From the NCBI GenBank assembly GCA_003171065.1, contig PMXQ01000148.1:1-39437 (forward strand): a stretch of 39,437 bases of DNA. Direction: 5' to 3'. Each line of letters opens with the position of its first letter. The stretch's first letter is position 1. Made by a program: the position numbers and the translations under genes. The notes beneath the pieces are model-generated. The model did no database searches and had not been told where the DNA came from. It was given only the letters and a program-made list of their open reading frames with translations. The DNA comes from Chloroflexota bacterium (lineage in GTDB: Bacteria > Chloroflexota > Limnocylindria > Limnocylindrales > CSP1-4). Below, in pieces: positions 20,802-39,437 of this stretch.

Positions 20802-20984
20802 TCGGCGGCCCGCGGCGCCAGACAACCCCAGGGCCACGGCCCGGAGGGACCGTGAGGACCGGCAGACTGCTCCGGAGGAGAGCCTGATCGGTCGACCTCA
20901 CGGCGCCGGAAGGTGAAAGCGGAAGCGGGCGTCCGTCACGATTCTGGCTATCCATCTCCGTCTCTTGGGACTAAGCCTGCCTCG

Positions 20985-22382: not shown

Positions 22383-22899
22383 GGCCAACGTTCGGGCGGG
22401 CGATCTCGTTGTTGCTCTCTGTAGTGCTCGCTCACGCGCGTCCAAGCGCGCTCACTCGCCTCCGCGGGAGCGCCTGGGGCTCACCTCGCCGGAACGTCGG
22501 CATGGTTGTTCGAGCGGTCCAGCCGGCTCGCAACGTGGATAACTTGGCCAAAACCGTGGATATCCGCCGTCGGGCGTGGAGAAACCCAGCGTTTATTGCG
22601 GACGTCGAAGTGGCTTGATCACCGCCCCAGGAGACGAGCACGGACCATCAGCCCAATCTCTCCACCGCACCGCAATACAGTCATCCCCAATTCGACGCAG
22701 TCCATTCACCATCCCAGAGGACCCTTCCACCGCCGACCTGAGCGTGACCACGCAGCCAATGCACATCCTCCACACCATGATGACGGTGATGACGGGATGA
22801 GAAGATAGATGGACAATCAACCAAGAGTAGGATCCCGCTGCTCGTCACCCAGCTACCCGATCAGCCCGTCATGTCCGACCTCAGGGGAGTGAAGCCGAA
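22383..22899. other. Candidate replication origin oriC (dnaA-dnaN intergenic)
   Basis: 517 bases without a gene. Three DnaA boxes in the same orientation (reverse of TTATCCACA type): CGTGGATAA 22534-22542, CGTGGATAT 22555-22563, CGTGGAGAA 22575-22583, spaced 21 and 20 bases, i.e. on one face of the helix. The first two carry C rather than T at the first position of the reverse box, suggesting a local consensus TTATCCACG. The 200 bases after them (22620-22830) are visibly less GC-rich and may hold the unwinding element. Location between dnaA and dnaN is the most common for bacterial origins. Confidence 0.75.
22534..22583 (-). promoter_or_regulatory. DnaA-box cluster
   Basis: Three boxes at 22534, 22555 and 22575 as described for oriC. 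They could also mediate autoregulation of the region. Confidence 0.7.
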
Positions 22900-24018
22900 G
22901 TGAAACTCTCGGTCATGCAGGAGAACCTGGCTCGAGGTCTCCAGGTCGTCAGCCGCGCCGTGCCAACGCGGAGCACCCTGCCCGTGCTGAACAATGTCCT
23001 TCTTCGAACTGAGGACGGCGGCCTGAAGCTGACCGCCACCAACCTTGAGATCGGGATGACCTACTGGGTGCCCGGCAAGATCGAGGTTGGTGGGACAACC
23101 ACAGCGCCGGCCAGGCTTCTCACTGACATCGTCGCCGGATTACCAGCCAACGAGCGAGTCGACCTTGAGCTCCAGGCTCAGGAGACGCTGTACATCCACG
23201 CCGGGCGGTTCGAGACGCGCGTCAAGGGGATCGATGCCGAGGAGTTCCCGGCGATCCCCACCGCCGGAGAGAAGCCGACCACCCGGATCGCCCAGAACGT
23301 CCTGCGCAAGGCACTTACTGAAGTGACCTTCGCTGCGGCGACCGACGAGGCGAGACCGATCCTGACGGGCGTTCTGGCTCGTTTCGAGGGCACACAACTC
23401 ACCCTGGCGGCGGCCGACAACTACCGGATCGCAGTCAAGACAATCACTCTTCTCGACCCCGTCGAGGAGACGAGCATCGTCATCCCGGCCCACTCGCTCG
23501 ATGCCCTGGGCCGGGTTCTGTCGGAAACCGATGACCCGGTCAGCGTCGTGCTCTCGCCGAGCCGCAACCAGATCCTGTTCCATGTCGAAGGGATCGATCT
23601 GGTGAGCCGTCTGATCGACGGGCAGTTCCCCAATTACCAGCAGGTGCTGCCGAAGAGCCATACCACGACCGCGACGGTCGACCGCGACCAGCTCCTCAAG
23701 GCGGTTCGTCTGGCCGGCCTCATCGCCTTCTCGTCGGCCAATATCGTCAAGCTCCACATCGGCAAGGAAGCGGCGACGGGCCTGACGGTGAGCGCCGCAG
23801 CCGACATCGGCGACAACCACAGCGAGGTCGAGGCCCAGGTCGAGGGTGACGGCACCACGATCGCCTTCAACGCCAAGTACCTGGTCGACGTCCTGGCGAA
23901 CGTCCCGGCCGAGCAGTTCTCGATCGAGCTGAACGGGCCTCTCTCGCCCGGTGTCTTCCGGCCGGTCGACGACGCGGACTACGTCCACATCGTCATGCCC
24001 GTCAAGACGACCTCTTAG
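22900..24018 (+). CDS. dnaN: DNA polymerase III beta subunit (sliding clamp)
   Basis: 372 residues from GTG 22900 with AGGGGAG upstream. Forms the ring-shaped dimer that tethers DNA polymerase. Typical start KLSVMQENLARGLQVVSRAVPTRSTLPVLNNVLL, middle domain with TEVTFAAATDEARPILTGVLARFEG, and the C-terminal end FRPVDDADYVHIVMPV (the usual Y-h-h-MP-h-R/K end). Length is normal. It is followed after 24 bases by recF. Confidence 0.97.
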   Translation: MKLSVMQENLARGLQVVSRAVPTRSTLPVLNNVLLRTEDGGLKLTATNLEIGMTYWVPGKIEVGGTTTAPARLLTDIVAGLPANERVDLELQAQETLYIHAGRFETRVKGIDAEEFPAIPTAGEKPTTRIAQNVLRKALTEVTFAAATDEARPILTGVLARFEGTQLTLAAADNYRIAVKTITLLDPVEETSIVIPAHSLDALGRVLSETDDPVSVVLSPSRNQILFHVEGIDLVSRLIDGQFPNYQQVLPKSHTTTATVDRDQLLKAVRLAGLIAFSSANIVKLHIGKEAATGLTVSAAADIGDNHSEVEAQVEGDGTTIAFNAKYLVDVLANVPAEQFSIELNGPLSPGVFRPVDDADYVHIVMPVKTTS

Positions 24019-24042
24019 GAGCGGCAGATCCCCAAGGACCGC

Positions 24043-25269
24043 GTGGTCGCGCCTCGGTCGAGGCCGCCGACGCTGCTTCGCTCTCTTGCTCTCCGGAATC
24101 TCCGGGGCTACGCCTCGCTGGACCTGACACTGGGCCCCGGGCCACAGCTCATCTGGGGCCCGAACGCGGCCGGGAAGACGACCCTGCTCGAGGCCATCGT
24201 GCTGCTGGCGTTGGGCCGCTCCCATCGAACCGGCGCTGATGCCGAGCTGATCCGCTGGGGGACCGACTTTCTGCGGGTCGAGGGGGTGGTGGGGGTCATG
24301 GAGGCGACCGGGGCGCCCGAGGCCGAATCCCCTGAGGCCGAATCCAGGGCGACGGGGGTCGCGCTCGAGGGTTCCCCGCCAGCAGGGGTCGCGCTGGACG
24401 TCACCTTCCAGGCCGGCGGCCGCAAGCAGATCCAGGTGAACGGCGTCCCTCGCCGCCCCGCGGCCCTGGCCGAGCACCTGCGGACCGTTCTCTTCGCCCC
24501 CGAGGACATGCTCCTCGTCGTCGGCCCGCCGACCCTGCGGCGGACGGTGCTCGACCAGCTCGCAGGGCCGCACGATCCGATGTACGGGTCGCATCTCTCC
24601 ACGTATACCCGCGCCCTATCCCAGCGCAACAGCCTGCTCCGGCAGATCCGCGACGGCGAAGCGGACCGCGCCCAGCTGCGCTACTGGGACGAGCCGTTCC
24701 TGGCCTCGGGCGCGGCCATAGTGGTGGCTCGGCTGCGCCTTCTGGAGTTGCTCACAGCGCCTCTGGCGGCCGCTCACCGCGAGATCGCCCCGGCAGAGGA
24801 GCCGTTGTCGCTGGCCTACGCCACAAACGCGCCGCTGCTCCCCGGGGAGTCGCCACGGGACGCGCTGGCCCGCCGGCTGGACGAGACGGCCGAGAAGGAG
24901 GCGTGGAACGGAACGACGCTCGTGGGTCCGCACCGGGACGACCTGGTCTTTCGCATTGGCGCCCGCGACCTCACCACATTCGCCTCGCGCGGCCAGCAGC
25001 GGACGGCCATCCTGGCCCTCAAGCTGGCCGAGCTGGACCTTCTCACAGTTCTCGACGGCCGACCTCCGCTGCTCCTGCTCGACGATGTCTTCAGCGAGCT
25101 GGACCCGCTGCGCCGCGGCCACCTGGTCCGGCGCATCGCCGATCTGCCCCAGGCGCTGGTCACGACGACCGTGCCGGACGATCTGGACCCGGATCTGCGG
25201 CGGCGGGCGTGCGCCTGGCGGGTGGTCGCGGACGTCGAGGGTACGCGGGTCGAGGAGGGCGGGGCTTGA
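24043..25269 (+). CDS. recF: DNA replication and repair protein RecF
   Basis: 408 residues from GTG 24043 (AAGGA upstream). SMC-like ATPase that helps load RecA at gaps. Motifs: LRSLALRNLRGYASLDLTLGPG, Walker A GPNAAGKTT at 39-47, signature region FASRGQQRTAILALKLAE, Walker B LLLLDDVFSELD near 345. About residues 87-120 hold a low-complexity insertion made of repeated EAES and GVAL units between two core strands, which seems to be a local expansion. The stop overlaps a possible TTG start of the next gene (TTGA). Confidence 0.95.
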   Translation: MVAPRSRPPTLLRSLALRNLRGYASLDLTLGPGPQLIWGPNAAGKTTLLEAIVLLALGRSHRTGADAELIRWGTDFLRVEGVVGVMEATGAPEAESPEAESRATGVALEGSPPAGVALDVTFQAGGRKQIQVNGVPRRPAALAEHLRTVLFAPEDMLLVVGPPTLRRTVLDQLAGPHDPMYGSHLSTYTRALSQRNSLLRQIRDGEADRAQLRYWDEPFLASGAAIVVARLRLLELLTAPLAAAHREIAPAEEPLSLAYATNAPLLPGESPRDALARRLDETAEKEAWNGTTLVGPHRDDLVFRIGARDLTTFASRGQQRTAILALKLAELDLLTVLDGRPPLLLLDDVFSELDPLRRGHLVRRIADLPQALVTTTVPDDLDPDLRRRACAWRVVADVEGTRVEEGGA

Positions 25270-25663: not shown

Positions 25664-27961
25664 ATGACCGTCCGCCTTCAAATGAAGCTTGGCCTCGTGG
25701 CCGAGTCGCAAAGACCGCCCGACTCACCAGACACGGTCCTGGTCGTGGAGCCCAGCATCGGGTCGACGACCCGGACCAAGGGCAACCTCTACCTAGTCGT
25801 AACGGGCGAGGGTGGGGGTGAGCTTCGTTCTGCGACGAACATGGTCGCCGAGCGCGTCCGGCACGAGTACTACTACGATGAGTCGGCCGGAATCACCGTC
25901 TGCCTCAAGAAGGCCATCAGGGCGGCGAACCGCGAGCTACGCGTCACGGAGCGGCTGGTCGCCAGGCAGGGCGAGGGCGGCCCAATCGGAATCGCGCTGG
26001 CCGTGGTTCGGAGCAACGAGCTGTACGTTGCGACCGTGGGACCGGCCGAGGCCTATCTGGTCCGTGAGGCCAGGCTGCTGACTCTGCCCGCGCCCAACCC
26101 GGCCAGCGGACTACCGTGCGAAGACGGCACTGATCCCGAGGTCTGGCACGGCGACCTCCTCGCCGGCGACAGCATCATCCTCATCTGTCCCAACGCCACC
26201 CGCCGGATCGGCCTGGCGCCGATCCAGGACGCCGTTATCCAGCTCCATCCCCAGGTCGCGATCGACCAGATCCACCGCCAGCTGGCCGGCGGAGGACTCG
26301 GCGTGGCCGGTGGTGACGGCATGCTCGCCCTCGAGGCGGACGAGGTGCCGGTCACCCAGAAGAACCAGCCCCTGAAGCCGGTTTGGCCGAGCGACTCGCT
26401 GGCCGGGGTGCCGGAGCACTCGCCGATCCCGATGGCCGACTCGGTCAGCGAGAGCGTGTCGACGGTCCAGCACACGGCCAAGCAGGTCCAACGCACGGCG
26501 GACGGCATGCTCCGCCACAGCGTCTACGGTCTCTTCGACCGGATGCCGCGGCGGCCCGTCCAGCGCGTTCGAGTCACCCCGATCGCCGTCCAGCGCGAGC
26601 GCCAGCGCCGCGTCGCGAGCGCCGTCGTGGGCCTGCTGCTCGTCCTGACGGTCGTGGGCGCCTCGCTCTGGTACCTGGCCGGGACTCGCCACGAGCTGAA
26701 CATCGACCAGCAGAACCGCGACCAGGCCGCCTATTTGCAGGCGCAGAGCGATTGGTTCGCGGTCGCCGGCAATGGCCGGAACCTCCTGGTAAGCGATCCA
26801 TCGACCGCCAAGACGTATCTGGAAGATGCGTACAGGAACCTGCAGATCGCCAAGGAAAGCTACTCCAGCGACGCTCTGGCCGGACTCACCAATGAGATCG
26901 TCGGCGATCTCAACATCTATTACCACGTCAATGTGATCGTCCCGCAGGTCGTCCTCTCATTCGGGAGCGACACGCTGACGGGGCTCGTGCTTGGTCCGGA
27001 CGACGGGGCGTACGTCATCGACCAGACCGACGGAACCGTCTACCGGGTCGATCTGCGCACGCGAGGCAAGGTCGCGGTAGCAGTCGAGGGCGAGCAGCCG
27101 GCGGCCGTGCTGACCGCAGGCATCGCCGTGGGCTCGCCCCGTTTGCTGGCCACTGGCGGCCAGGACGTGCTGATCCTCGACGACGCCAACAACCTGTGGC
27201 GCTGGCGGCCCGCGGCCGGGGCGGCGATCGGGCAGGGCACGCTGGCCCAGGTCCTCGTGCAGGACTCTGGAACATGGGGCTCGAACGTCCGGGCGATGGC
27301 GACCTTCTTGACCAGCTACGACCTGGGCCAGTACTCCCTCTACGTCGTGGTTCCGTCGGCCGGCCAGGTTCTGAAGTATCCGGAGGCGGCCGACGGCACC
27401 GGCTACTACGCTCAGTCCAGGGCGAACTACCTGAACGGCCAGGACCTGAGCGTGTCCCAGGTGGACGACATGTACATCGACGGCAGCGTCTACCTGGCCG
27501 ACGACGGAGTGATCGAGCGGTTCGACTCCGGCACGGAGATTCGGAATTGGACGGCCGACCCGCCGGGCGACGCCATCATGCGGCCCGCGGCTCCCTTCTA
27601 CACGAGGATTTCCGCCGACAACGACAACGCTGACCAGGGCAACCTCTACGCCTACGACGGTGTCGGCCGGCGGATCGTCTCGGTCGCGAAGATCAACGGG
27701 GCGTACGTGCAGGAATTCGTCCTTCCGGGCAACTCGGCCTACTTCTCCACTCTGCAGGCGATGTTCGTTCGGACCGGTCCGAACAGTTCGAACCCGACGC
27801 TCTACTGGATCGAAAGCGGCAATCTGATGAGCGCTCCGCTTGGGACCGGGCCGGCGGCCAGCCCCTCGCCGAGCGGCATGCCGTCGCCCTCGCCGAGCGG
27901 CATGCCGTCGCCCTCGCCGAGCGGCACGCCGGTGCCGACGCCGTCGCCCAAGAAGCGCTGA
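25664..27961 (+). CDS. Degenerate PP2C-like domain, membrane anchor and beta-propeller-like exterior
   Basis: 765 residues. Residues 1-235 follow the PP2C/SpoIIE strand order, but the metal-binding aspartates are gone: the ADGMGG loop is VTGEGGG (46-52), GDSR is GPAE (126-129), the SDG loop after hydrophobic strand IILIC is PNAT (176-179). Then a Ser/Thr-rich juxtamembrane stretch, basic segment, single membrane helix (about 316-338), coiled lead-in (HELNIDQQNRDQAAYLQAQSDW), and from about 410 to 725 repeated 4-stranded segments (LTGLVLGPDDGAYVIDQTDGTVYRVDLRTRGKV, PRLLATGGQDVLILDDANNLWRWRP) of propeller type. C-terminal Ser/Pro repeat tail. Possibly a sensor coupling an external ligand to cytoplasmic signalling, without phosphatase activity. 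Domain order is inferred by eye. Confidence 0.7.
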   Translation: MTVRLQMKLGLVAESQRPPDSPDTVLVVEPSIGSTTRTKGNLYLVVTGEGGGELRSATNMVAERVRHEYYYDESAGITVCLKKAIRAANRELRVTERLVARQGEGGPIGIALAVVRSNELYVATVGPAEAYLVREARLLTLPAPNPASGLPCEDGTDPEVWHGDLLAGDSIILICPNATRRIGLAPIQDAVIQLHPQVAIDQIHRQLAGGGLGVAGGDGMLALEADEVPVTQKNQPLKPVWPSDSLAGVPEHSPIPMADSVSESVSTVQHTAKQVQRTADGMLRHSVYGLFDRMPRRPVQRVRVTPIAVQRERQRRVASAVVGLLLVLTVVGASLWYLAGTRHELNIDQQNRDQAAYLQAQSDWFAVAGNGRNLLVSDPSTAKTYLEDAYRNLQIAKESYSSDALAGLTNEIVGDLNIYYHVNVIVPQVVLSFGSDTLTGLVLGPDDGAYVIDQTDGTVYRVDLRTRGKVAVAVEGEQPAAVLTAGIAVGSPRLLATGGQDVLILDDANNLWRWRPAAGAAIGQGTLAQVLVQDSGTWGSNVRAMATFLTSYDLGQYSLYVVVPSAGQVLKYPEAADGTGYYAQSRANYLNGQDLSVSQVDDMYIDGSVYLADDGVIERFDSGTEIRNWTADPPGDAIMRPAAPFYTRISADNDNADQGNLYAYDGVGRRIVSVAKINGAYVQEFVLPGNSAYFSTLQAMFVRTGPNSSNPTLYWIESGNLMSAPLGTGPAASPSPSGMPSPSPSGMPSPSPSGTPVPTPSPKKR
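27863..27934 (+). repeat. Three 24-bp tandem repeats
   Basis: Unit beginning CCCTCGCCGAGCGGCATGCC; first two copies essentially identical, third diverged. Encodes SPSPSGMP units in the C-terminal tail of the pseudo-PP2C protein. Confidence 0.85.
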
Positions 27962-28589: not shown

Positions 28590-29393
28590 CTAGCCGAGCA
28601 TCGCCTCGCCACGGCGCATGCCCTTCGAACGTCCCAGCCACAGGCGGAGTCGCAGCGACCAGAAGTCGCGCACCGCCCGGAAGACCACGCTGGGCTTCGC
28701 GCCCGTTGGCGAACCGGCCGTCCGCGGATAGTGGGGCACGCCGACCTCGGCGATGCGGCGGCCTTCGAAGCGCAGCTTGATCAGCAGCTCGGCGGTGAAG
28801 AAGGCGCCGCCCGAGGATACCCTGACCGGCTCGAGGGCCTGGCGTTTGAAGAGCTTGCAGGCGCAGTCGATGTCGTGGACGCGGACACCGAAGAAGATTC
28901 GGTTCGAGAGGCGGTAGACGCGGGCATACCAGCGCCGGATCGGGGGGTCGGCGCGCTGAAGGCGGAAGCCCACCACGACGTCCGGAGAGTCGGGCGCGGC
29001 CATCCGCTCCGTCAGGCGGCCGACGTCGATCACCCTGAACTGCCGGTCGCCGTCGATGAAGGCGATCAGGTCGTAGCGCGCGGCTCGGAAGCCGGATCGA
29101 AGCGCGGCCCCGTAGCCCAGGTTGGTGGGGTGATGGACGACACGGAAGACGTCCGGATGGCGCTTCGCCAGGTCGTCGGCGATGGCCGGCGTCCGGTCCT
29201 TCGAGCCGTCATCGACCGCGATCACCTCGAACCTGGCCGCCAACGAGGGCAGCGTCGCCAGCGCCTCGTCTACCAGCGCCTCGAGGTTGGCTTCCTCGTT
29301 GTGGGCAGGAAAGAAGAACGACAGCTCGGTGACCCGGTTGCCGGGCTCCCCGGCAGACGCTCCTGGGTTGTCCATTCGATCAGGTTCGCGCAT
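28590..29393 (-). CDS. GT2 glycosyltransferase, polyprenyl-phosphate-sugar synthase-like
   Basis: 267 residues from ATG 29393, five bases after the stop of the preceding gene. GT-A fold family 2: ELSFFFPAHNEEANLEALVDEAL, VIAVDDGSKDRTPAIAD, LGYGAALRSGFRAARYDLIAFIDGDRQF (DxD-type DGD that binds the metal and nucleotide sugar), and the DPM1-like VHDIDCACKLFKRQ. There is no C-terminal membrane domain, so it resembles soluble/peripheral DPM1 or Ppm1 enzymes that move mannose or glucose onto a polyprenyl phosphate. Such a product would be the donor for the GT-C enzymes encoded beside it. Last gene of the minus operon 33056-28590. Confidence 0.85.
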   Translation of the reverse strand: MREPDRMDNPGASAGEPGNRVTELSFFFPAHNEEANLEALVDEALATLPSLAARFEVIAVDDGSKDRTPAIADDLAKRHPDVFRVVHHPTNLGYGAALRSGFRAARYDLIAFIDGDRQFRVIDVGRLTERMAAPDSPDVVVGFRLQRADPPIRRWYARVYRLSNRIFFGVRVHDIDCACKLFKRQALEPVRVSSGGAFFTAELLIKLRFEGRRIAEVGVPHYPRTAGSPTGAKPSVVFRAVRDFWSLRLRLWLGRSKGMRRGEAMLG

Positions 29394-29398
29394 CGGCT

Positions 29399-31219
29399 TC
29401 ACTTTCGGGCAGTGACCTTGTTGAGAACGTAGGGCTTGCACGGATCTATGACGTAGCGGGTACACAGGGCCGGAATGCCGTCGCCCGTGACCGGATCGCC
29501 GGCATCCGTCCGGATGGTGTAAACGGGCCTCTTGCCAAGGTACTTGTCGAACACGTCCGTGACTTGCTCGACCGTGACGCCGTTCAGGACCCGGTCGCTG
29601 TCATCCACGATCAGGACGTCGGGTCGCAAGCCCTCGACCCGCTGGCCGTACCAGAGGGTCGTAGAGGCCGACCACCAGCTCACGATGACAGCGTTGGCCG
29701 CCACGCCGCCCTGGTCCGGGGGAGCCAGAACGCTCTGCATCCAGGTCGCGTCCTGAGTCTGGTCGGCCTCGCTGACGGCGCCGGGTTCCGATCCGGCCAG
29801 CGCTTGACGCGCGGGCACGACGGCCACGCTCGCGGCCACCAGGACGACGGCAGCGACGATCTCGGCCACCAGGAGCGCTCGACGATTCCAGCCCTCGCCG
29901 TCCCGGGACGAGGTCGGGCGAGGAGCGTCAGCCGAGGGCGCGGCTCCGGCCGTTGCCGGCGGAGCAAGGCTGGGCCCGAGTTTCTTCCGGGCGATCGCCA
30001 CCAGCCATATCCCGAGCCGGAGAACGTCCGCCAGCCCGAGCCCGGCGTAGATGAAGGCTACGAAGAGGGGCACGAGGAAGTACCGGTCGAGCTCCGCATT
30101 GGCATACGAGACGGCGAAGTCGGCCGTCACGGCCGCCGCAAGAATGCTCAGCAAGACGAAACGCGGCCGGCGCGCCAGGCTGGTGCCCAGGCCGATGACG
30201 GCGAGGTAGCCCAGCGCCCCGAGCCAGCCTGCGAGCAGGTCTATCACCGCGGCGTACTTGGCCGGCAGGTCGCCCGACGGGTCGATGAGGCTGCCTCCGA
30301 ACTGCTGAGCCAGAACGACATACTGGAAGCCGGCCCACGTGTCCGGATGCCCGTACACGAGCGGCGCTCCCATCGCCGCCCGGATGGGCAGCTCCAGGTA
30401 CAGGATGACGATCGTCACGGCCAGGACGGCGGCGCAGCGGAGGATCAGCCGCCACTGCAGAACGATGCGCGGCGCCACGGCCAGCACAAAGAGGGCGATC
30501 GCCGGCGGCAGCAGCCACGACAGGCCGTGGTTGGCGAAGGCCACCCCGTAGACGAAGGCAGCGGCCACGAGCCAGCGGTCGGCTGTGCGGCGTCTCTCCT
30601 GGTCGTGGCCCGTCCGCCGACGCTCCCACACGAGCAAGAGGAGGAAGAGCAGCGCCACGAGCGCGAGGTGGAGCATGTGGTAGTCGGCGTGGGTGGCGAT
30701 CTGCCAGAGGAGCGGCGTGGACGTGACGCTGTAGCCATCCGGGAACCCGACCTGCGCCGGCGACAGAGTGGGCATGATCAGGAACAGCAGCCCAGAGGCC
30801 AGGGCGACCCAGCGCATGCTCGTCAGCATCTGGACGATGGCCACCAGTCCCGCCACTGCCCCTGCCGCCAGGATCGCGTTGAGCAGGTTCATACGGTAGG
30901 CCGGGTCGCCGAACGGCAGCAGATGGGAGGCAATGAATCCGAGGATCACGTAGGCCGGATAGCCCGTGGGGTGACCGGTGCCGAGCACCGGCGCGACGGT
31001 CTGGAACTCGGCCGTATCCCAGGCCAGAACGCCGGGCGCCAGGGTGGGAATGACGAGCCAGAGCGTCGCCACGGCTCCAACCAGCGGCGCGAAGGCCGCC
31101 GCCGCCAGAGCGCGATTCAGGCCGGCGCGCGCAAGGCGCTGCCGGATCGCTTCGGTTCGGCGGGAAGGCGCGGTCGCCTCCGGGGAGCTATCGGTCCGCG
31201 GCAGATCGTCACCAGCCAA
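29399..31219 (-). CDS. DUF2723 (TMEM260-like) membrane glycosyltransferase
   Basis: 606 residues from TTG 31219, overlapping the upstream gene by 11 bases. Polytopic, about 12 helices. After helix 1 the acidic motif APGVLAWDTAEFQTVAPVLGTGHPTGYPAYV is diagnostic for DUF2723; the eukaryotic member TMEM260 is a protein O-mannosyltransferase, so a GT-C role with a lipid-linked sugar is likely here. A Pro/Ala/Ser-rich cytoplasmic loop precedes the last helix, followed by an external C-terminal domain (about residues 480-606, DQTQDATWMQSVLAPPDQGG...ALCTRYVIDPCKPYV). Middle gene of the operon. Confidence 0.85.
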   Translation of the reverse strand: MAGDDLPRTDSSPEATAPSRRTEAIRQRLARAGLNRALAAAAFAPLVGAVATLWLVIPTLAPGVLAWDTAEFQTVAPVLGTGHPTGYPAYVILGFIASHLLPFGDPAYRMNLLNAILAAGAVAGLVAIVQMLTSMRWVALASGLLFLIMPTLSPAQVGFPDGYSVTSTPLLWQIATHADYHMLHLALVALLFLLLLVWERRRTGHDQERRRTADRWLVAAAFVYGVAFANHGLSWLLPPAIALFVLAVAPRIVLQWRLILRCAAVLAVTIVILYLELPIRAAMGAPLVYGHPDTWAGFQYVVLAQQFGGSLIDPSGDLPAKYAAVIDLLAGWLGALGYLAVIGLGTSLARRPRFVLLSILAAAVTADFAVSYANAELDRYFLVPLFVAFIYAGLGLADVLRLGIWLVAIARKKLGPSLAPPATAGAAPSADAPRPTSSRDGEGWNRRALLVAEIVAAVVLVAASVAVVPARQALAGSEPGAVSEADQTQDATWMQSVLAPPDQGGVAANAVIVSWWSASTTLWYGQRVEGLRPDVLIVDDSDRVLNGVTVEQVTDVFDKYLGKRPVYTIRTDAGDPVTGDGIPALCTRYVIDPCKPYVLNKVTARK

Positions 31220-33056
31220 GCATCACTCCCCAGACGGTGCCCCACAGGTTGATCGCGATCGAAGCGGCCACGAACGGCACCAGCACCCACCAGTAGCGGC
31301 CGAGGCGGTTCGCGCCGAGCGCGACCAGCAAGATGGCGAACGGAGCGAAGTCGTTGCTGAAACGGTAGCCGAACTGAACCCAGCCCTGGCTGAAGTGCAT
31401 GAGGTTGACGAAGGCAATCGCCACGACGGCGATGGCGGCGCCCACGGTTACGCGGTCGAGCCTGCGCCAGAGGGCCGGGATGAAGGCCAGCGGGGCGAGC
31501 AGATAGGCCGGGCTGGTCAGGATGACGCTGTTGCCGACCCAGTTCGGGACTGCGATCGGGCAGGACTTGTCGAACAGCCCGCGCGCCGCGCCGCCCTGGC
31601 AGAGCTGATCCGCCGGCCAGGGATACTGGTTGGGCATGATCAGGGGCGTGTTGAACAGCATGATCATCAGGTTCTGCGGCACGTAGCGCAGGTCCTCGAT
31701 CGACCAGTCCGCATGGTAGTTGAGGAAGGTGTATCCGAGCTCCTGCTGGTACAGGTAGTCGTACACGGGGTTGAAGAGGTGACCCGTTTCCGCGTACGTG
31801 TAGACGAGCAGCGCGACGAGCGGCACCGCCGCTCCGGCGCCGGCCAGGAGTCCGCGCCGCAGCCAGTTGCCACCGCCGCCCACCAGGAGCAGGAACGGGA
31901 AGCCGAAGACGATCGTCAGCCGCGCCGTGCAGGCGAGGCCGAAGAGAAGCCCGGCGGCCACCTGGCGTGACTCCGGCCGGGCCATCGTGTCCGAGAAGGC
32001 GGCCAGCGCGCGATCCATCGACTGGGGTCGAACGCGGGCCATGACCACCAGCACGACGACCAGCACCAGGACCGCTGCGTCCGCGAGTGCCAGCGCCCCC
32101 GGGTCCTGGGCTCCGAGCACCAGAGCCGCGGGCACGCCGCCGACGACGGCGACGACGGCGATGAGCGGCACCAGAACGCCGCGGCCGGACACGGCGAGGG
32201 CCAGAATGGCGGCCCCGATCGCCAGGACAACGCCCACGCCGGCGACGGTGGCTGCTGCCGTACCGGCTCCGGCCAACCTGAAGAGCAGCTCGCCGAGCAC
32301 ACCAAGCACGACGACCGTCACTGCCGAGCGCCACCAGCCGGGCCACGCCGCACGCCGGGCCGCGGCGAGATCATCTGCGAGGGGCTGCGGCTCGGCGGCC
32401 TCGCGGTCGGCGGAGAGCGCGAAAGCAATCGCCGCCAGCAGACAGCCGACGGCGACTATGTGGGCCCAGAACCAGGTGCTTCCTATGGCGGCCGCGTACC
32501 AGAGGACCGTGCCCAGGCCCAGGAACAAGGTGGTCAGCCGGCGCACCTCCTGTCGGATCGGCAGGTAGCCCAGCATCCAATAGGCAATCCCAACATCCAC
32601 GGCGGCGAAGATCGTGGCCAGCAGCTGCTCGTTGGTGAACAGGTGCCAGAAGGCGACGAACGGCAGCAGGACCAGCGCCGGGAGCGGCGGGAACGGCAGG
32701 TTGCCGCGGTTGGTGTCGTTGCCGTCGGCGTCGAGGATCGGCTGGAAGTCCTGATACCAGGAATCGCCCGGCGAGGTCGCCGACGGCGCCACATGGGTCG
32801 CGATCGAGGTCTGGCCGTCCAGCCACGCCTGGGCCTGCCAGACGAAATGACTGTACGGGTTCTGGCGGTTTGGGTTCGTGAAGACGAACACGATCAGGCA
32901 CAGGACGATGAGGGCGATGCCCCAGACGAAGGGCGCCAGGCGGACCTTCCCGTCTTGGGCGTCGGAGCCGCCGGGATGCAGATCGTCCGCCGGCTCGGCG
33001 GCGGGCGTGGCCGGTCCGCCGTCCCCAGGCGTGGCCTGGGTTATACTCCGCTGCAC
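31209..33056 (-). CDS. Polytopic membrane protein, GT-C glycosyltransferase-like
   Basis: 615 residues from GTG 33056. First helix at about 43-60, then an external loop FTNPNRQNPYSHFVWQAQAWLDGQTSI...NRGNLPFPPLPALVLLPFVAFWHLF; this helix-loop-helix with a proline-rich return is the GT-C pattern, as is LLFGLACTARLTIVFGFPFLLL in the middle. About 14 helices in all; a central stretch (about residues 235-340) of pure Ala/Val/Leu/Gly helices looks like an inserted bundle. External loops near the C-terminus include NPVYDYLYQQELGY and FGYRFSNDFAPF. No acceptor or donor can be named. First gene of the minus operon; its start codon is 29 bases from that of the divergent giant gene. Confidence 0.7.
   Translation of the reverse strand: MQRSITQATPGDGGPATPAAEPADDLHPGGSDAQDGKVRLAPFVWGIALIVLCLIVFVFTNPNRQNPYSHFVWQAQAWLDGQTSIATHVAPSATSPGDSWYQDFQPILDADGNDTNRGNLPFPPLPALVLLPFVAFWHLFTNEQLLATIFAAVDVGIAYWMLGYLPIRQEVRRLTTLFLGLGTVLWYAAAIGSTWFWAHIVAVGCLLAAIAFALSADREAAEPQPLADDLAAARRAAWPGWWRSAVTVVVLGVLGELLFRLAGAGTAAATVAGVGVVLAIGAAILALAVSGRGVLVPLIAVVAVVGGVPAALVLGAQDPGALALADAAVLVLVVVLVVMARVRPQSMDRALAAFSDTMARPESRQVAAGLLFGLACTARLTIVFGFPFLLLVGGGGNWLRRGLLAGAGAAVPLVALLVYTYAETGHLFNPVYDYLYQQELGYTFLNYHADWSIEDLRYVPQNLMIMLFNTPLIMPNQYPWPADQLCQGGAARGLFDKSCPIAVPNWVGNSVILTSPAYLLAPLAFIPALWRRLDRVTVGAAIAVVAIAFVNLMHFSQGWVQFGYRFSNDFAPFAILLVALGANRLGRYWWVLVPFVAASIAINLWGTVWGVMLGW
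33042..33047 (+). promoter_or_regulatory. Candidate -10 of the giant gene
   Basis: TATACT, 44 bases before TTG 33086 and inside the first codons of the divergent gene. No clear -35. Confidence 0.35.
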
Positions 33057-33085
33057 TTCAGCGCTCGTCCAGGAGGCCGTTTCGG

Positions 33086-36000
33086 TTGGCAGGCCCGAGC
33101 ACGCGAGAGGCCAGCCCGCGGGGGAACGCGGCGGCGGGAACGAACGGTGTCGAAACCTCTGTTCTCGCCATCGTCGTCCTTCTCCTCCTGGGTCTGACCC
33201 TCCGACTCATCATCGCATACGTTCTACTTCCCGGGTCGGGCTTCCCCAACGATCTCGGCTCGTTTCGGGGTTGGAGCAGCCAGCTCGTAGCGCAGGGCCC
33301 CGTGGGGTTCTACGACAGGGCCGGCTTCCTGGACTATCCCCCCGTCTACCTGCTCTTCCTGTGGGTCCAGGGCCTGATCTTCTCGCCGTTCGGCGGCATC
33401 GATGACCAGTCGATCAAGCTGATCCCGATCTTCACGGACCTGGCCCTGGCCTGGGTCGTCTTCGTCACGGCGCATGAGCTGGGTGCATCGCGGTGGCGGT
33501 CCGTGGGCGCGGCCGCGATCGTCCTGTTCAACCCCATCACCTGGTTCAACAGCGCGATCTGGGGCCAGGCCGACGTCGTCGGCGCCTTCTTCATGCTGCT
33601 GGGCCTGAGGGAGCTGCTGCGGGATCGGCGCGAGCTCGCCGCGGTATTCGCCGTGGTGGCCGCCATGACCAAGATGCAGCTGGGAATCCTCGGCGTCCTC
33701 GTCGGCTTCGTGATCCTCCGCCGGTCGCTGGCTCCGCGCGAGGGGCGGCCCGATCCCGAGCGCGTCCTGACGTCCATGGCGTCGGGATTGGCCACGGGCG
33801 CCCTGGTCTGCCTGCCATTCACGGGCCTCGATTTCGTCGGCCTCGCCGCGCGCCTGACCACGCCTCAAGGCCTTCTGGCGCTGCCCGCGGGCTTGATCGC
33901 CGGCCTGGGCGTCTACTTGCTGGTCCGGCGCTCCGACCTCGTTTCGGCCGCGACCCGAGAGCTCGCAGCCGCGGCAGCCGGCGCGGCCACGGTCGTTGGC
34001 TTCGCCGCGATGGCTTTCGGCTCGATCGCCAGCCACATCATCAACACGTTCGGCGAGTACCCGTACCTGACTCTCAACGCCTACAACCCCTGGGCCCTGG
34101 TGGGCACCGGGACCGGCGGCGCCATGGATCAGACCCTGGGCTGGATCCACGATGTCCTGGTGTACGCCAACGGCGCCGCCCAACCGTACTTCAGCGTCGG
34201 GCCGTTCTCGACCCATGTCGTGATCGCCATGGCGGTCACCGTTCTCGTGCTCGTCGCGGTCGCCGCCGTCGCCTGGGCACGTGCCAGGGCGACGGATCCG
34301 GGAGCGGAACAGGTCCAGGCGTACGCGGCTGCCGCTGCGGCGCCCGCAACCGATCAGCTCGAATCGGAGGCCCCGGCGTCCGAGGCGGCCCCGTCGGCGT
34401 CCGGATCCCGCAAGCCCGCCTTCTCGCTGCCGTCCGAGCTGCGCTCGCTCGCGGTGGGATGCCTTGTCGTGGTGGGCGCGATCGTCTGCCTCCTCGCCGG
34501 CCAGCTCAGCGGCGGGCTTCCGGCCTGGGTCGTCGGCGACGGCTTCCTGGTGGCCATCATGGTCGGCGTAGGCGCCTGGGCGGCCTGGCGCGACGACCGC
34601 CTTTCGATCGCGGTCGCGCTCGCGATCCTGGCCATCGCCTTCTTCGTCGTCCCGACCCGGGCGCACGAGCGCTATCTGTTCCCGTTCTTCGCCGTGGGCG
34701 CGATCCTGCTGGCCGTGTCGTGGCGCTGGAGCGTCGCGTACGTGGTGCTGGCCGTGGTCAACGCCGCGAACCTGCTGGCCGTCCTTGTCGAATACCAGGG
34801 CATCCCCGGCGTGCAGGGTGCCAATGGGACGGCCGGCCCGATCTCGGGGCTGCTGGGCGATTGGGGCAACTTCCTCAAGACCGCCGAGTGGGCCGGGGTA
34901 ATCTGGCCGATCGCGCTTTCGGGGGTCGTCACCGGCCTCGCCCTGCTGTGGGCCATGGCGCAGATGCGACCCCGGGCCGTCGCGGTGCTGGCCTGGGAGG
35001 CCGAAAGGGCAGGGCGCGAGCCCGAGCATTTGTGGTCCCTGACACACATGTGGCCGGAGTCTGGCCAGGTGCCGGTATGGGCAGCGGAAAGGGCGGGCCG
35101 CCGACCCGAGCCCCGGCCCGAGCCCGAGGTCGAACCGGCCGCCGCGGGGACCCTCGCGGGCCGCGAGATGGCGGTGTCGGACGAGACAGCCGGCGACGAG
35201 ACAGCCGGCGACGAGACAGCCGGCGACGTCTACGACGACTATGAGAGCTACGACTCGGCATCCGGCGAGCAGCCGGAGTTTGTCCCCGGCTTCGTGATGT
35301 CGGCCTGGCGATGGCTCAACCGCTCGGGGACGATGCCGGATCGTTCGGCCGCTCTCTCAACCGAGCCCAAAGGCCACTTCGACAAGCTCGACCTCTGGGT
35401 CGTCGTGGCCGTCGTCATCGTGATTCTCTCGATGCGCGTCTATCGCCTCGACGAACCGTCCCAGATGTACTTCGACGAGGTCTACCACGCCCGCACCGCC
35501 ACGGAGTTCCTGCAGGACTGGCAGTACGGCATCCGCCACGACATCTATGAGTGGACTCACCCGATGCTGGCCAAGTACGCCATCGCCGGCGGCCTGGCCG
35601 TCTTCTCGGACGACAAGGTCACGGCCACGAGCAGCCTCGGTGTGCCGGTGATGGATGCGGTCGTGCAGCCGCGGATCGCGCCCGACAGCGCCGACTCCGG
35701 GACCGGCCCCACCGATCCCCGCTCCAACGCCGACGCGCGACTCGGCGATCGCCTGTACGTCGCCACGGGCACGGAGGTGATCGCGTACGACCTCCAGACG
35801 CGAGCGGTGGAGGCGACGTACCAGATTCCCGGAGCATCCGCGCTCTCCATCGCGGGCGACACGGGCGACCTCTTCGTCGGCACCTCGGACGGGCGGATCT
35901 GGCGGATCGACATGTTCCAGCTCGACGACGTCCGCCTCGGCGCGGCGAGCAAGCCCGCGCCGGCGGTCGAGCTGTCGACCCAGACGGGCTTTCCGATCGT

Positions 36001-39000
36001 CAAGATCTACGCCGACTCGCCGCCCCTGATCCTGGCCGTCGACACGACCGGAACGATCGTGTCGCTTGATGGCACGGGCAAGATCCTGGCCCGCGAAGTG
36101 GTGGATGGCGCCGCCGATTTCGCACCGCTGACTTCTACCGCGACAGTGGTCGTACGGACCCCGACCTCGAGCCCGACTGCGACCGTGTCGGCGGAAGCCA
36201 ACGCCATTGCCGCGGCGCTGAAGATATCGTCGGACGACGTTGCGGCGGCGCTGAGCTCGCCGGCGAACTCGGGTCTCGACACGGTCCTGGACCTGGGCAC
36301 GCTCTCGCAGGACCAGATAGCCGCTCTCCAGACACTCATCGACGCCGGCCAGCTGCCGGACATCGCCATCAGGTCAGATGACCCGCAGGTGGTGGTCGCG
36401 TACGCCAGCGGCGTCGGCATCATGGACGTGCGTGACCTCGCCGTGACCTCGCCCATCAGCACGAATCAGCCGGCAACCTCGATCGCGATCGACCCCGCGG
36501 CCCGTTCTGCTTGTGTGAACCCCCCCCTCCCGGAATGGTTCGTCGCCACGGGCGCCTCGATCCTCCTGGTCGACGTGAACGACGCGGGGACCGCGACGAT
36601 CGCGCAGGATCCTTGTCAGCAGCTCAGTGTGATGCCCGGCTTGATCACCAAGGTCGTCTTTGACGGCTCGACCCAGGACGCCTCTGCTCTCGGGAGAACT
36701 CCCGACGGGTCGGGCTGGACGGTCTATGCGATCGAAAGCAACGGCAACACCGTCTTCTCGGATGCGAAGCTGCCGTTCGATCCGGTCGCCATCGGGGTGG
36801 ACGCGACCCCGGACCTGCCCAACACCGACCGCCAGGACCTCCTCGCCTTCGCTCCCAACGGCGACATGGCCCAGGTCGACATCGGCCAGTTCGCCTTCGC
36901 CTGGCGCATCGTCGGGGTCCTCTTCGGAGCGCTCATGGCGGTCTGCCTCTACCTGCTGGCGCGGCTCCTCTTCCGCCGCCGCTCGGTCGGCCTGCTGGTG
37001 GCCCTCTTCTCGTGCGTGGACGGGATGTTCTTCGCCCAGTCGCGCATCGCCATGAACGACACATACGTCGGCGGCTTCCTGTTACTGGCATATCTTCTGT
37101 TTGCATACATCTGGCTCGGCGCGAAGAACGATCGCCGGTCATGGCTGGCTTTCTGGATCGGCATGCCGCTGGTGGGGCTGGTGCTGGGCCTGGCCCTGGC
37201 CTCCAAGTGGGTAGCCCTGTACGCCATCGCGAGCATCGGCATCCTGATCTTCATCCGATCGGCGCTGGGACGGCTCCTCACCATCCTGGGTCTGGTCGCG
37301 GGGACGGGCATCCTCGGCTGGAACGCGATCGCGGAGATGCAGACCCTGCCGGGAACGGGGAACGTCGCCGCGCTCCTGCTCATCCTCGGCCTGGGCCTGG
37401 CGGTCCTGGTGGGCGGCGTGTGGTACGCCATGGTGCGGGCTCGGACGACGCCCGACAAGGTGCTCTTCGTGGCGGTCGCGGTCCTGATCAGCCTGCCGAT
37501 CTTCTACTGGGGCATGAAGTTCTATCCCGCGCCCGACCAGAACGGCGGCCCGGACTACACGTTCTTCTTGATCATGCTCGTGGCGACCGCGATCGCCGCC
37601 GCCGTGAACGCCTACCACCCGATCGCCTGGAGCAAGCAGGAGTTCTGGTTCGCGGTCTTCGCCCCGCTCGGGATCGGCCTGGTGGCCGGCGTCGGTTGGC
37701 TGATAGTGGGCGTGCTCGACTTCGTGCCCTTGCAGGGCATCCTGGCCTATGTCGCCTCGCGGGGCATCGTGGGCGGCATCGCCGCCGTCCCCGCCATCGC
37801 CTTCGTCTTCTGGCTCGCCGGCAAGCTCGGCTTCGGGCCGCTGGCCGACCCGCCGTCGGCGGAGAATCCTTCGTCCTTCGCCGGACCGCCATCGCCGGCG
37901 CCCCAGGGCTGGCTGCGCCTGGGCTCCGGCTTCGGTCTGCCGGCGGCCTGGATGGCGGTTTGCCTCATGATCCTGCCGCTGGCCGTCTACATCGCCGTCT
38001 ACGTCCCGTGGGCGGTGCCCTGGCAGCAGGAGACACCCGCCAGCGGCCGGCTGCCGATCCTGATGTGCTGGAACACGGATCCCGCAACGGGGGCGTGTAC
38101 GAACGCCTGGCCGGTGGGCCACACCGGTCAGACGCTGATGCAGCTGACCGAGCAGATGTATGCCTACCACAATGATCTGCGCGCCACGCACGCCGCCAGC
38201 TCGCCGTGGTGGGCCTGGCCCCTGGACCTGAAGCCCGTCTGGTTCGAGAGCGTCAGCTACGGCCCGGACGTTGGCTCATGGATCCACGATGGCGGCAACC
38301 CGGTGCTGTGGTGGCTGGCCATCCCGGGCATGGCCTTCGTCTGCTGGCAGGCCTTCAAACGACGAAGCCTGGGGCTGGCGCTGATAGCAATCGCCTTCTT
38401 CTGGCAATGGCTGTCCTGGGCCCGCATCGACCGGGCTGCGTTCCAGTATCACTTCTACACGGCCCTCCCGTTCTTCCTGTTAGGCCTGGCGTATTTCCTG
38501 GCCGAACTGTGGCACGGGCCGTCCCGCCGGACATGGCTGCTCGCCCGCATCGCCGCCGTCGCGGCGGCGATGGTTCCGGCTGCCCTGTGGATAGCGAAGT
38601 ACCCGTTGTGCAGTCTCGCCCGCGTAGATGCATCGAACTACTTCGGTAACACCGCCTGCGGTTCTGTTACGGGTACGCTCACGGTCGAGGCGCGCATCTT
38701 CCTGATCGCGCTGGTTCTCGTGGGCGCACTGGCCGTGCTCGCCCTGACGCTGATCCGCCTCGAGCGCTGCCCTCCCGAGGAGAGCGAAGATGATCGAAGC
38801 TGGATCTTCCAGCTGATCCTCCCTGTTGCCGTGGCCGGAGCCTTGATCCTCTGGCTTGGTGCCAACGGTCCGCGCGAAGTGATCTTCCAGGCTGCCCTGC
38901 CGCCCGACCTGCTGGCGCTCATCATGGCGGTGCTGGGCGTGTGCCTGGGCATCCTCGCGATCACCGCCCGCGACTCGCGCCGCCTGATGTTTGGGATCTG

Positions 39001-39437
39001 CATCTTCGCGGTGGTGACGTTTGCCGCGCTGTATCCGGACCTGTCCGCCCTGCCCGTGCCGAACCTGTTGCTCAACGTCTACGACGCCATCCTGCCGACC
39101 TGGTTCTACGGCTTCCAGTTCGCGGACAACATGCAACAGTCGCAGAGCGTGGCCTTCATCAGCAGCGCCTCGGTCCTGGTTTCGCTGGCGGCGCTGGCCG
39201 TCGCACTGATGGCGGGCTACGCGGCCTGGGTGCAGCGCGTCGTCGCCGGGTACCGCCGCCACCAGTTGCTGATCGCCGGTCTGGGCGAGGGGGATGCCGC
39301 CGGGGGCGAATCCGCAGACGAGCCGGCGGCCGGAGCGGCAGACAAGCCGGTAGACAAGCCGGTAGACGGACCTGCGGGCGGCGCGGCAGACAAGCCGGCA
39401 GACGGGGCGGCAGACGGGGCGGCAGACGGAACTGCGG
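33086..39437 (+). CDS. Giant fused GT-C glycosyltransferase / GT39 protein O-mannosyltransferase with inserted propeller-like domain (3' truncated by window)
   Basis: At least 2,117 residues from TTG 33086 (AGGAGG at 33071-33076, nine-base spacing); no stop before the window end. Module 1 (1-about 665): GT-C with Asp56 after helix 1, DYPP at 83-86 and RAHERYLFPF at 525-534, as in ALG6/GT87-like enzymes. Linker (about 670-765): acidic, with DETAG repeats. Module 2: PMT/GT39, with FDEVYHARTATEFLQDW (Asp797-Glu798), EWTHPMLAKY (822-831), QSRIAMNDTY (1318-1327), LGLALASKWVALYA, and the C-terminal SSPWWAWPLDLKPVWF. Between the HP motif and FAWRIVGVLFG (1271-) lies an insertion of about 430 residues with propeller-like repeats (DRLYVATGTEVIAYDLQT, GDLFVGTSDGRIWRIDMF). 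PMTs pass mannose from a polyprenyl phosphate to Ser/Thr of exported proteins. The end is a repetitive Ala/Asp/Lys/Pro tail. Confidence 0.88.
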   Translation, partial: MAGPSTREASPRGNAAAGTNGVETSVLAIVVLLLLGLTLRLIIAYVLLPGSGFPNDLGSFRGWSSQLVAQGPVGFYDRAGFLDYPPVYLLFLWVQGLIFSPFGGIDDQSIKLIPIFTDLALAWVVFVTAHELGASRWRSVGAAAIVLFNPITWFNSAIWGQADVVGAFFMLLGLRELLRDRRELAAVFAVVAAMTKMQLGILGVLVGFVILRRSLAPREGRPDPERVLTSMASGLATGALVCLPFTGLDFVGLAARLTTPQGLLALPAGLIAGLGVYLLVRRSDLVSAATRELAAAAAGAATVVGFAAMAFGSIASHIINTFGEYPYLTLNAYNPWALVGTGTGGAMDQTLGWIHDVLVYANGAAQPYFSVGPFSTHVVIAMAVTVLVLVAVAAVAWARARATDPGAEQVQAYAAAAAAPATDQLESEAPASEAAPSASGSRKPAFSLPSELRSLAVGCLVVVGAIVCLLAGQLSGGLPAWVVGDGFLVAIMVGVGAWAAWRDDRLSIAVALAILAIAFFVVPTRAHERYLFPFFAVGAILLAVSWRWSVAYVVLAVVNAANLLAVLVEYQGIPGVQGANGTAGPISGLLGDWGNFLKTAEWAGVIWPIALSGVVTGLALLWAMAQMRPRAVAVLAWEAERAGREPEHLWSLTHMWPESGQVPVWAAERAGRRPEPRPEPEVEPAAAGTLAGREMAVSDETAGDETAGDETAGDVYDDYESYDSASGEQPEFVPGFVMSAWRWLNRSGTMPDRSAALSTEPKGHFDKLDLWVVVAVVIVILSMRVYRLDEPSQMYFDEVYHARTATEFLQDWQYGIRHDIYEWTHPMLAKYAIAGGLAVFSDDKVTATSSLGVPVMDAVVQPRIAPDSADSGTGPTDPRSNADARLGDRLYVATGTEVIAYDLQTRAVEATYQIPGASALSIAGDTGDLFVGTSDGRIWRIDMFQLDDVRLGAASKPAPAVELSTQTGFPIVKIYADSPPLILAVDTTGTIVSLDGTGKILAREVVDGAADFAPLTSTATVVVRTPTSSPTATVSAEANAIAAALKISSDDVAAALSSPANSGLDTVLDLGTLSQDQIAALQTLIDAGQLPDIAIRSDDPQVVVAYASGVGIMDVRDLAVTSPISTNQPATSIAIDPAARSACVNPPLPEWFVATGASILLVDVNDAGTATIAQDPCQQLSVMPGLITKVVFDGSTQDASALGRTPDGSGWTVYAIESNGNTVFSDAKLPFDPVAIGVDATPDLPNTDRQDLLAFAPNGDMAQVDIGQFAFAWRIVGVLFGALMAVCLYLLARLLFRRRSVGLLVALFSCVDGMFFAQSRIAMNDTYVGGFLLLAYLLFAYIWLGAKNDRRSWLAFWIGMPLVGLVLGLALASKWVALYAIASIGILIFIRSALGRLLTILGLVAGTGILGWNAIAEMQTLPGTGNVAALLLILGLGLAVLVGGVWYAMVRARTTPDKVLFVAVAVLISLPIFYWGMKFYPAPDQNGGPDYTFFLIMLVATAIAAAVNAYHPIAWSKQEFWFAVFAPLGIGLVAGVGWLIVGVLDFVPLQGILAYVASRGIVGGIAAVPAIAFVFWLAGKLGFGPLADPPSAENPSSFAGPPSPAPQGWLRLGSGFGLPAAWMAVCLMILPLAVYIAVYVPWAVPWQQETPASGRLPILMCWNTDPATGACTNAWPVGHTGQTLMQLTEQMYAYHNDLRATHAASSPWWAWPLDLKPVWFESVSYGPDVGSWIHDGGNPVLWWLAIPGMAFVCWQAFKRRSLGLALIAIAFFWQWLSWARIDRAAFQYHFYTALPFFLLGLAYFLAELWHGPSRRTWLLARIAAVAAAMVPAALWIAKYPLCSLARVDASNYFGNTACGSVTGTLTVEARIFLIALVLVGALAVLALTLIRLERCPPEESEDDRSWIFQLILPVAVAGALILWLGANGPREVIFQAALPPDLLALIMAVLGVCLGILAITARDSRRLMFGICIFAVVTFAALYPDLSALPVPNLLLNVYDAILPTWFYGFQFADNMQQSQSVAFISSASVLVSLAALAVALMAGYAAWVQRVVAGYRRHQLLIAGLGEGDAAGGESADEPAAGAADKPVDKPVDGPAGGAADKPADGAADGAADGTA
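35180..35224 (+). repeat. Three 15-bp perfect tandem repeats
   Basis: Unit GACGAGACAGCCGGC, three exact copies, encoding DETAG x3 in the acidic linker between the two transferase modules of the giant gene. Confidence 0.95.
39313..39437 (+). repeat. Degenerate short repeats at the end of the giant gene
   Basis: 12- to 15-base units of the type GCAGACAAGCCG, GTAGACAAGCCG and GCAGACGGGGCG encode ADKP, VDKP and ADGA blocks. The array continues past the window end. Confidence 0.8.

Follow-up and report, generated by a model that had tools for sequence, protein, structure and literature searches.

Does the 3' part of a Chloroflexota contig encode two different membrane glycosyltransferases of the GT-C superfamily as one polypeptide and, if so, what might such a protein do? 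This question is raised by contig PMXQ01000148.1 (assembly GCA_003171065.1; 3.02 Mb, 88% complete), and this entire contig of 39,437 nucleotides was the window of our analysis. An open reading frame of 2,117 codons extends from position 33086 to 39436 of the forward strand, where the 3' end of the contig cuts it off before any stop. A preliminary description had claimed a single frame of at least 2,117 codons with a strong Shine-Dalgarno sequence and no stop, and both the reading frame and the AGGAGG motif (Table 1) confirmed this claim. It had also assigned the two parts of the gene to GT87/ALG6-like and GT39/PMT-like GT-C modules (PMT, protein O-mannosyltransferase), and our Pfam, profile and fold comparisons led to the same result. 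As a reading of the architecture, this assignment of two modules was correct, but it had overlooked the beta-propeller that the PMT half carries in its external loop 1, the spread of the fusion throughout the class and the presence of donor-synthase-like and TMEM260-like neighbours.

Two separate genes might have been merged by a joining artefact or a sequencing error, for instance by one that hides a stop and a restart between positions 34,950 and 35,350. A search of related genomes had been suggested as a control, and here we found the fusion across the class. The least biased count was obtained with a phylum sample that comprised 301 genomes, of which 68 matched the first half (38 in the class, which we take to be Limnocylindria, and 30 outside) and 78 the PMT half (the same 38 class genomes and 40 outside). 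All class genomes but one (37 of 38) have parts of both halves in one frame, including G027 and G056, in which the gene is cut by the contig end; in the 38th (G088), the first half runs up to the edge of one contig and the PMT half begins at the edge of another. Among the matches listed from outside the class, the frames were of ordinary length only, with 389-935 codons where the first half was matched and 473-846 codons where the PMT half was, and this fits the earlier statement that PMTs stand alone at 450-900 residues. When a larger class sample was searched, 147 of 151 genomes matched at 1e-15, and no match at this threshold was obtained for G099, G110, G124 and G143 (completeness 59-83%).

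More detailed searches gave a similar picture. In the first one, the genome itself and its 40 relatives (41/41) all matched the fused protein somewhere. Nine of the 20 same-genus relatives matched near full length in one piece (55-60% identity) and the remaining ones in several pieces, mostly in frames of 2,170-2,251 codons, so that the long frame is not a product of chance; in G002, G004, G010 and G013, the frame of the fused gene is broken or cut by a contig end. From other class families, 18 genomes were searched, and 14 of them gave 15 loci. Every one of these is a fusion, and 272-349 residues separate its first PMT segment from the second. A scan of named genomes was ranked by match to the fused query and limited to the best 80 of 277 relatives, and this list is therefore biased towards fusions. 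All 80 carry the names Chloroflexi, Chloroflexota or Limnocylindrales (including one Limnocylindrales and one CSP1-4), and at 74 of these loci at least part of both halves lies in one frame. Four of the six exceptions are contig-cut (L079, L087, L144, L147), L085 has a PMT half with a different N-terminus, and in L129 the halves occupy two overlapping frames that switch in the linker. The latter locus would be consistent with two separate genes, and so would L083 and L086, which are among the 74 but carry a frame break further downstream. However, the counts in the phylum sample, the named-genome loci and the occurrence of the fusion in five class families speak against an artefact. Since independent assemblies carry the same fusion, a hidden stop and restart is excluded, and we consider an artefact practically ruled out.

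Some relatives have frames of more than 2,300 codons, and a third module was considered for L059 and L061. There, the N-terminal extra coincides with the divergent 615-aa gene on the opposite strand, and thus we took it for an antisense open frame and rejected the third module. Second copies with long frames were found in G024:C7 (2,616 codons) and G096:C67 (3,001 codons).

The predicted structure of the first half displays a GT-C fold with an Asp in the first external loop, as is characteristic of the GT-C superfamily. The motifs named for it in the preliminary description were located at D56, at residues 83-86 (DYPP) and at residues 525-534 (RAHERYLFPF), and in addition to the residues listed in Table 1, Y530 is invariant in the same 64 sequences. 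Structure comparison indicated that the predicted fold resembles ALG6, ALG3, glycosylphosphatidylinositol mannosyltransferase I (GPI-MT I) and PimE, an enzyme that uses polyprenyl-phosphate mannose. According to the titles of the structure entries, the donors of ALG6, ALG3 and GPI-MT I are dolichyl-phosphate sugars. At the sequence level, the match with Pfam GT87 (PF09594) amounted to 25.9 bits (cut-off 25). With a threshold of E<=0.01, PF09594 and PF03155 were matched by 31 and 28 of the 64 members, respectively, and a relative with 87% identity (L057) matched neither. When solved structures were searched with the sequence of the first half, a single chance-level match (E 0.8) was obtained. 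A contig from a viral collection (L153, 5001-5657) encodes a distant relative of this half (33%, E=4e-13), which was the sole and weak match of the viral scan.

For the PMT half, the motifs FDEVYHA (796-802), HPML (825-828), SRIAMND (1319-1325) and WAWPLDLKPV (1709-1718) were also located as previously described. The Pfam PMT domain (PF02366) scored 45.7 bits (cut-off 22.7), and the cut-off was exceeded in all ten scanned relatives that have a PMT half. The C-terminal PMT_4TMC domain (PF16192; 1.4e-6, 28.4 bits) stayed below its cut-off of 32.4 in the window protein and reached it in nine of the ten relatives, the exception being L057 (27 bits). Profile alignment of the PMT half yielded values of 9.8e-6 for Pmt4 and 1.6e-4 for Pmt1; in the structure comparison of the PMT fold, propeller chains filled the matches listed. 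The NCBIfam PMT equivalog NF058602 was not reached (23.8 of 800 bits), and thus the window protein does not qualify as an equivalog of the bacterial PMT in question. D797, E798, R1320, D1325, R1783 and F1786 match residues tested in the Mycobacterium tuberculosis PMT (PMC12331936), and the roles ascribed here to the DE motif, the second-loop Asp and the R-x2-Y/F pair follow that paper. Extra hydrophobic segments were observed in the PMT half at about residues 1430-1575 (window 37373-37810), and in families f3 and f5 about 10-35 residues separate the segments flanking this region.

The domain inserted in external loop 1 adopts a beta-propeller fold in the predicted structure. Its three-helix insert shows weak likeness to the N-terminal region of a penicillin-binding protein (4ovd, E=7.9e-5).

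Table 1. Features of the fused gene and of its divergent neighbours (positions in the window; aa, amino acid residues of the fused protein unless a protein length is given)
Feature	Position	Strand	Remarks
Shine-Dalgarno sequence AGGAGG	33071..33076	+	9 bases ahead of TTG start at 33086
First half, aa 18-655, ALG6/ALG3/GT87-type GT-C glycosyltransferase	33137..35050	+	
D56 codon	33251..33253	+	kept in 63/63 sequences having a residue there; 1 gap at contig edge
RAHERY motif, aa 525-530	34658..34675	+	R525, H527, E528, R529 in 64/64
Linker, aa 656-744	35051..35317	+	fast-evolving; acidic stretch and 3-fold 15-base repeat
First helix of PMT half and beginning of loop 1, aa 745-838	35318..35599	+	aligned with Pmt1/Pmt4; weak alone
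Catalytic Asp797-Glu798, DE motif of PMTs	35474..35479	+	64/64; aligns with FDEV of yeast Pmt1, Pmt4
Beta-propeller within external loop 1 of PMT half, aa 839-1269	35600..36892	+	
Three-helix insert in propeller, aa 1034-1086	36185..36343	+	helices 290-342 of model
PMT half, remainder, aa 1270-1905	36893..38800	+	Pfam PMT PF02366 7.7e-12
Arg1320-x4-Asp1325, counterpart of second catalytic Asp of PMTs	37043..37060	+	64/64; aligns with R, D of Pmt1/Pmt4
Arg1783-x2-Phe1786, candidate counterpart of PMT R-x2-Y/F pair	38432..38443	+	64/64; matched by eye
Additional hydrophobic segments at C-terminal side, beginning of low-complexity tail	38801..39436	+	hydropathy; tails of relatives
615-aa hydrophobic protein, divergent	31209..33056	-	glycosyltransferase-like NF047440 1.5e-4, far below cut-off; 47/49 loci
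TMEM260-like protein O-mannosyltransferase, divergent	29399..31219	-	PF11028 7.3e-26, 91.5 bits, cut-off 24.2; 44/49 loci
GT2 resembling polyprenyl-phosphate sugar synthases, divergent	28590..29465	-	PF00535 4.2e-30; 47/49 loci

We next asked how the two halves are related to each other. No kinship was detectable by profile (hhalign probability 2.7%), which argues against a recent duplication, and the possibility that one GT-C enzyme was recently duplicated within the gene was rejected at this level. In both halves and in the propeller, most differences from three relatives fall on third codon positions. The linker lacks this bias when compared with the closest relative (8, 11 and 10 differences at positions 1, 2 and 3), and it carries an in-frame tandem repeat of three copies of GAGACAGCCGGCGAC (window 35183-35227). 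The 3' end of the fused gene is absent from the contig; the frames of four same-genus relatives terminate after a low-complexity tail, and the missing part is probably short.

For the history of the fusion, midpoint-rooted trees were drawn for the PMT half (41 sequences) and for the first half (39 sequences). Both trees give the groups f3+f5, f4 and f1+f2, with f2 placed differently between them, and L050-L054, which are stand-alone halves, branch from within the fused sequences. Since the trees of the two halves share the main family groups, we read this as one old fusion that would have been followed by later splits or duplications. Three of the stand-alone loci (L050, L051, L052) are PMT halves that carry the propeller and nest within the genus among fused ones. 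Second fused copies are present in G024 (f1; L043 3736-11583, reverse strand) and in G045 (f4; L169 7947-12641, forward strand), and these group together in both trees, apart from the main copies of their own genomes.

As for function, we infer the activity of each half, its sidedness, the sugar, the protein acceptor, the order of the steps and the role of the propeller as follows. The chances appear about even to us that one polypeptide, a two-headed GT-C enzyme with both active sites facing outward, initiates O-glycans on exported proteins and then lengthens them. This single chain would reside in the cytoplasmic membrane. Polyprenyl phosphate would carry the sugar (most likely mannose) that the PMT half transfers to Ser/Thr residues of proteins under export, and the ALG6/GT87-type half would add one or more further sugars to the first one, also using a polyprenyl-phosphate donor. 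The propeller, which adjoins the PMT Asp-Glu pair in the chain, would probably hold or admit the acceptor protein, and the adjacent GT2 enzyme would make the donor. The suggestion of the preliminary description that a glycan would be built step by step on the same exported protein gains weight from mycobacteria, in which PMT initiates the O-glycan and PimE reportedly elongates it: the M. tuberculosis PMT places the first mannose on exported proteins, and PimE is reported to add further sugars in M. smegmatis (PMC7053730, PMC12331936). A more far-reaching proposal would be a one-protein O-glycan assembly machine, in which the PMT half primes, the propeller holds and passes on the acceptor and the ALG6-type half extends, which would release exported acceptors with a glycan of several sugars, and which arose once before the class families split and was kept even in genomes of about 1 Mb. 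We put it forward tentatively, as possible rather than probable.

The main rival explanation starts from the same fold comparisons. Like ALG3, ALG6, GPI-MT I and PimE, the first half might have a lipid-linked oligosaccharide or glycolipid as its acceptor, with proteins being the acceptors of the PMT half, so that the fusion would tie only their expression or their place. We consider this scenario unlikely: the fusion is present in almost all class genomes of the phylum sample and also in class genomes of 1.1-1.2 Mb, which suggests more than co-expression, and PimE is also reported (PMC7053730) to extend protein O-mannose. In another scenario, to which we assign a low probability, the first half would mainly be a stand-in for the second subunit of a PMT dimer (compare Pmt1-Pmt2 and the Pmt4 homodimer) and would stabilize the PMT half with little transfer activity of its own.

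The genomic environment bears on the choice of the sugar in the proposed two-step O-glycosylation. Neighbours were counted at those 49 of the 80 loci that include the first half together with 6 kb or more of upstream sequence. All three divergent genes (Table 1) are in place at 44 of these loci and none at L136 and L151; at six f2 loci (L044-L049), only the GT2 gene of the three is found beside the fusion. The GT2 neighbour matched ArnC (8e-12) about as closely as dolichol-phosphate-mannose synthase (5mlz, 1.9e-10), and as a polyprenyl-phosphate mannose synthase it did not reach any curated equivalog cut-off (17 NCBIfam models listed). These data, together with the unreached PMT equivalog, would be compatible with two active halves that transfer a sugar other than mannose (another polyprenyl-phosphate hexose or a pentose) in a two-step O-glycosylation of other chemistry. 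However, the PMT profile matches and the TMEM260-like neighbour indicate mannose, and a different sugar appears quite unlikely to us. The cluster comes after dnaN and recF in the window and in many relatives and, in the window, also after dnaA; these replication-origin genes are located upstream at 20913-25269. A gene between them and the divergent genes (25664-27961, forward strand; 47/49 loci) encodes a protein of 765 aa that shows a weak PP2C-like match and ends in a C-terminal tail rich in Ser, Pro and Thr. Tails of this composition are of the kind modified by O-mannosyltransferases.

If the proposal of a one-protein assembly machine is true, the protein would correspond, in fused form, to the PMT and PimE that mycobacteria have as separate enzymes, and it would be a PMT whose substrate-binding domain occupies a novel position. 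A single gene unites enzyme kinds that are reported to act in succession on bacterial O-mannosyl proteins, and whether initiating and extending enzymes work on the same protein becomes testable by point changes in one gene. A large propeller beside a GT-C catalytic site offers a new arrangement for studying acceptor choice of PMTs. Moreover, the occurrence of the fusion across an uncultured class and its retention in genomes of about 1 Mb suggest that the glycosylation of surface proteins is among the core functions of this class.

Each part of the protein is of a known kind, and what appears to be new is their combination and the place of the propeller. In a full-text literature search, which left most subscription journals outside its coverage, no report of the fusion or of this propeller placement was found in titles and abstract openings. 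The GT39 PMTs (the M. tuberculosis enzyme, yeast Pmt1, Pmt2 and Pmt4) share with the fused protein the loop-1 DE motif, the R-x4-D and R-x2-F elements and the PMT Pfam domain. The C-terminal four-helix region is also common to PMTs and the fusion family, although it remained below the cut-off in the window protein and above it in most of the relatives scanned. In contrast to the GT39 PMTs, the PMT half of the window protein is fused behind a second GT-C enzyme and has extra hydrophobic segments, and its loop 1 carries a beta-propeller of about 430 residues, whereas that of Pmt4 has about 30 residues. Eukaryotic PMTs carry the MIR beta-trefoil in another loop; the propeller probably plays a comparable role at a different place. 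PimE, a polyprenol-phosphate-mannose-dependent member of the GT87 family, is a separate protein in mycobacteria, whereas its counterpart here is the N-terminal module of one chain, with a fold nearer to ALG6/ALG3. Yeast ALG6 and ALG3 are stand-alone enzymes of the endoplasmic reticulum that act on dolichol-linked oligosaccharide, and here their counterpart is the fused first half. TMEM260-like O-mannosyltransferases (PF11028) are represented by the neighbouring gene, outside the fused chain. Finally, the propeller is of the YncE type, but YncE is a separate protein, whereas here the propeller lies inside the catalytic loop of a membrane enzyme.

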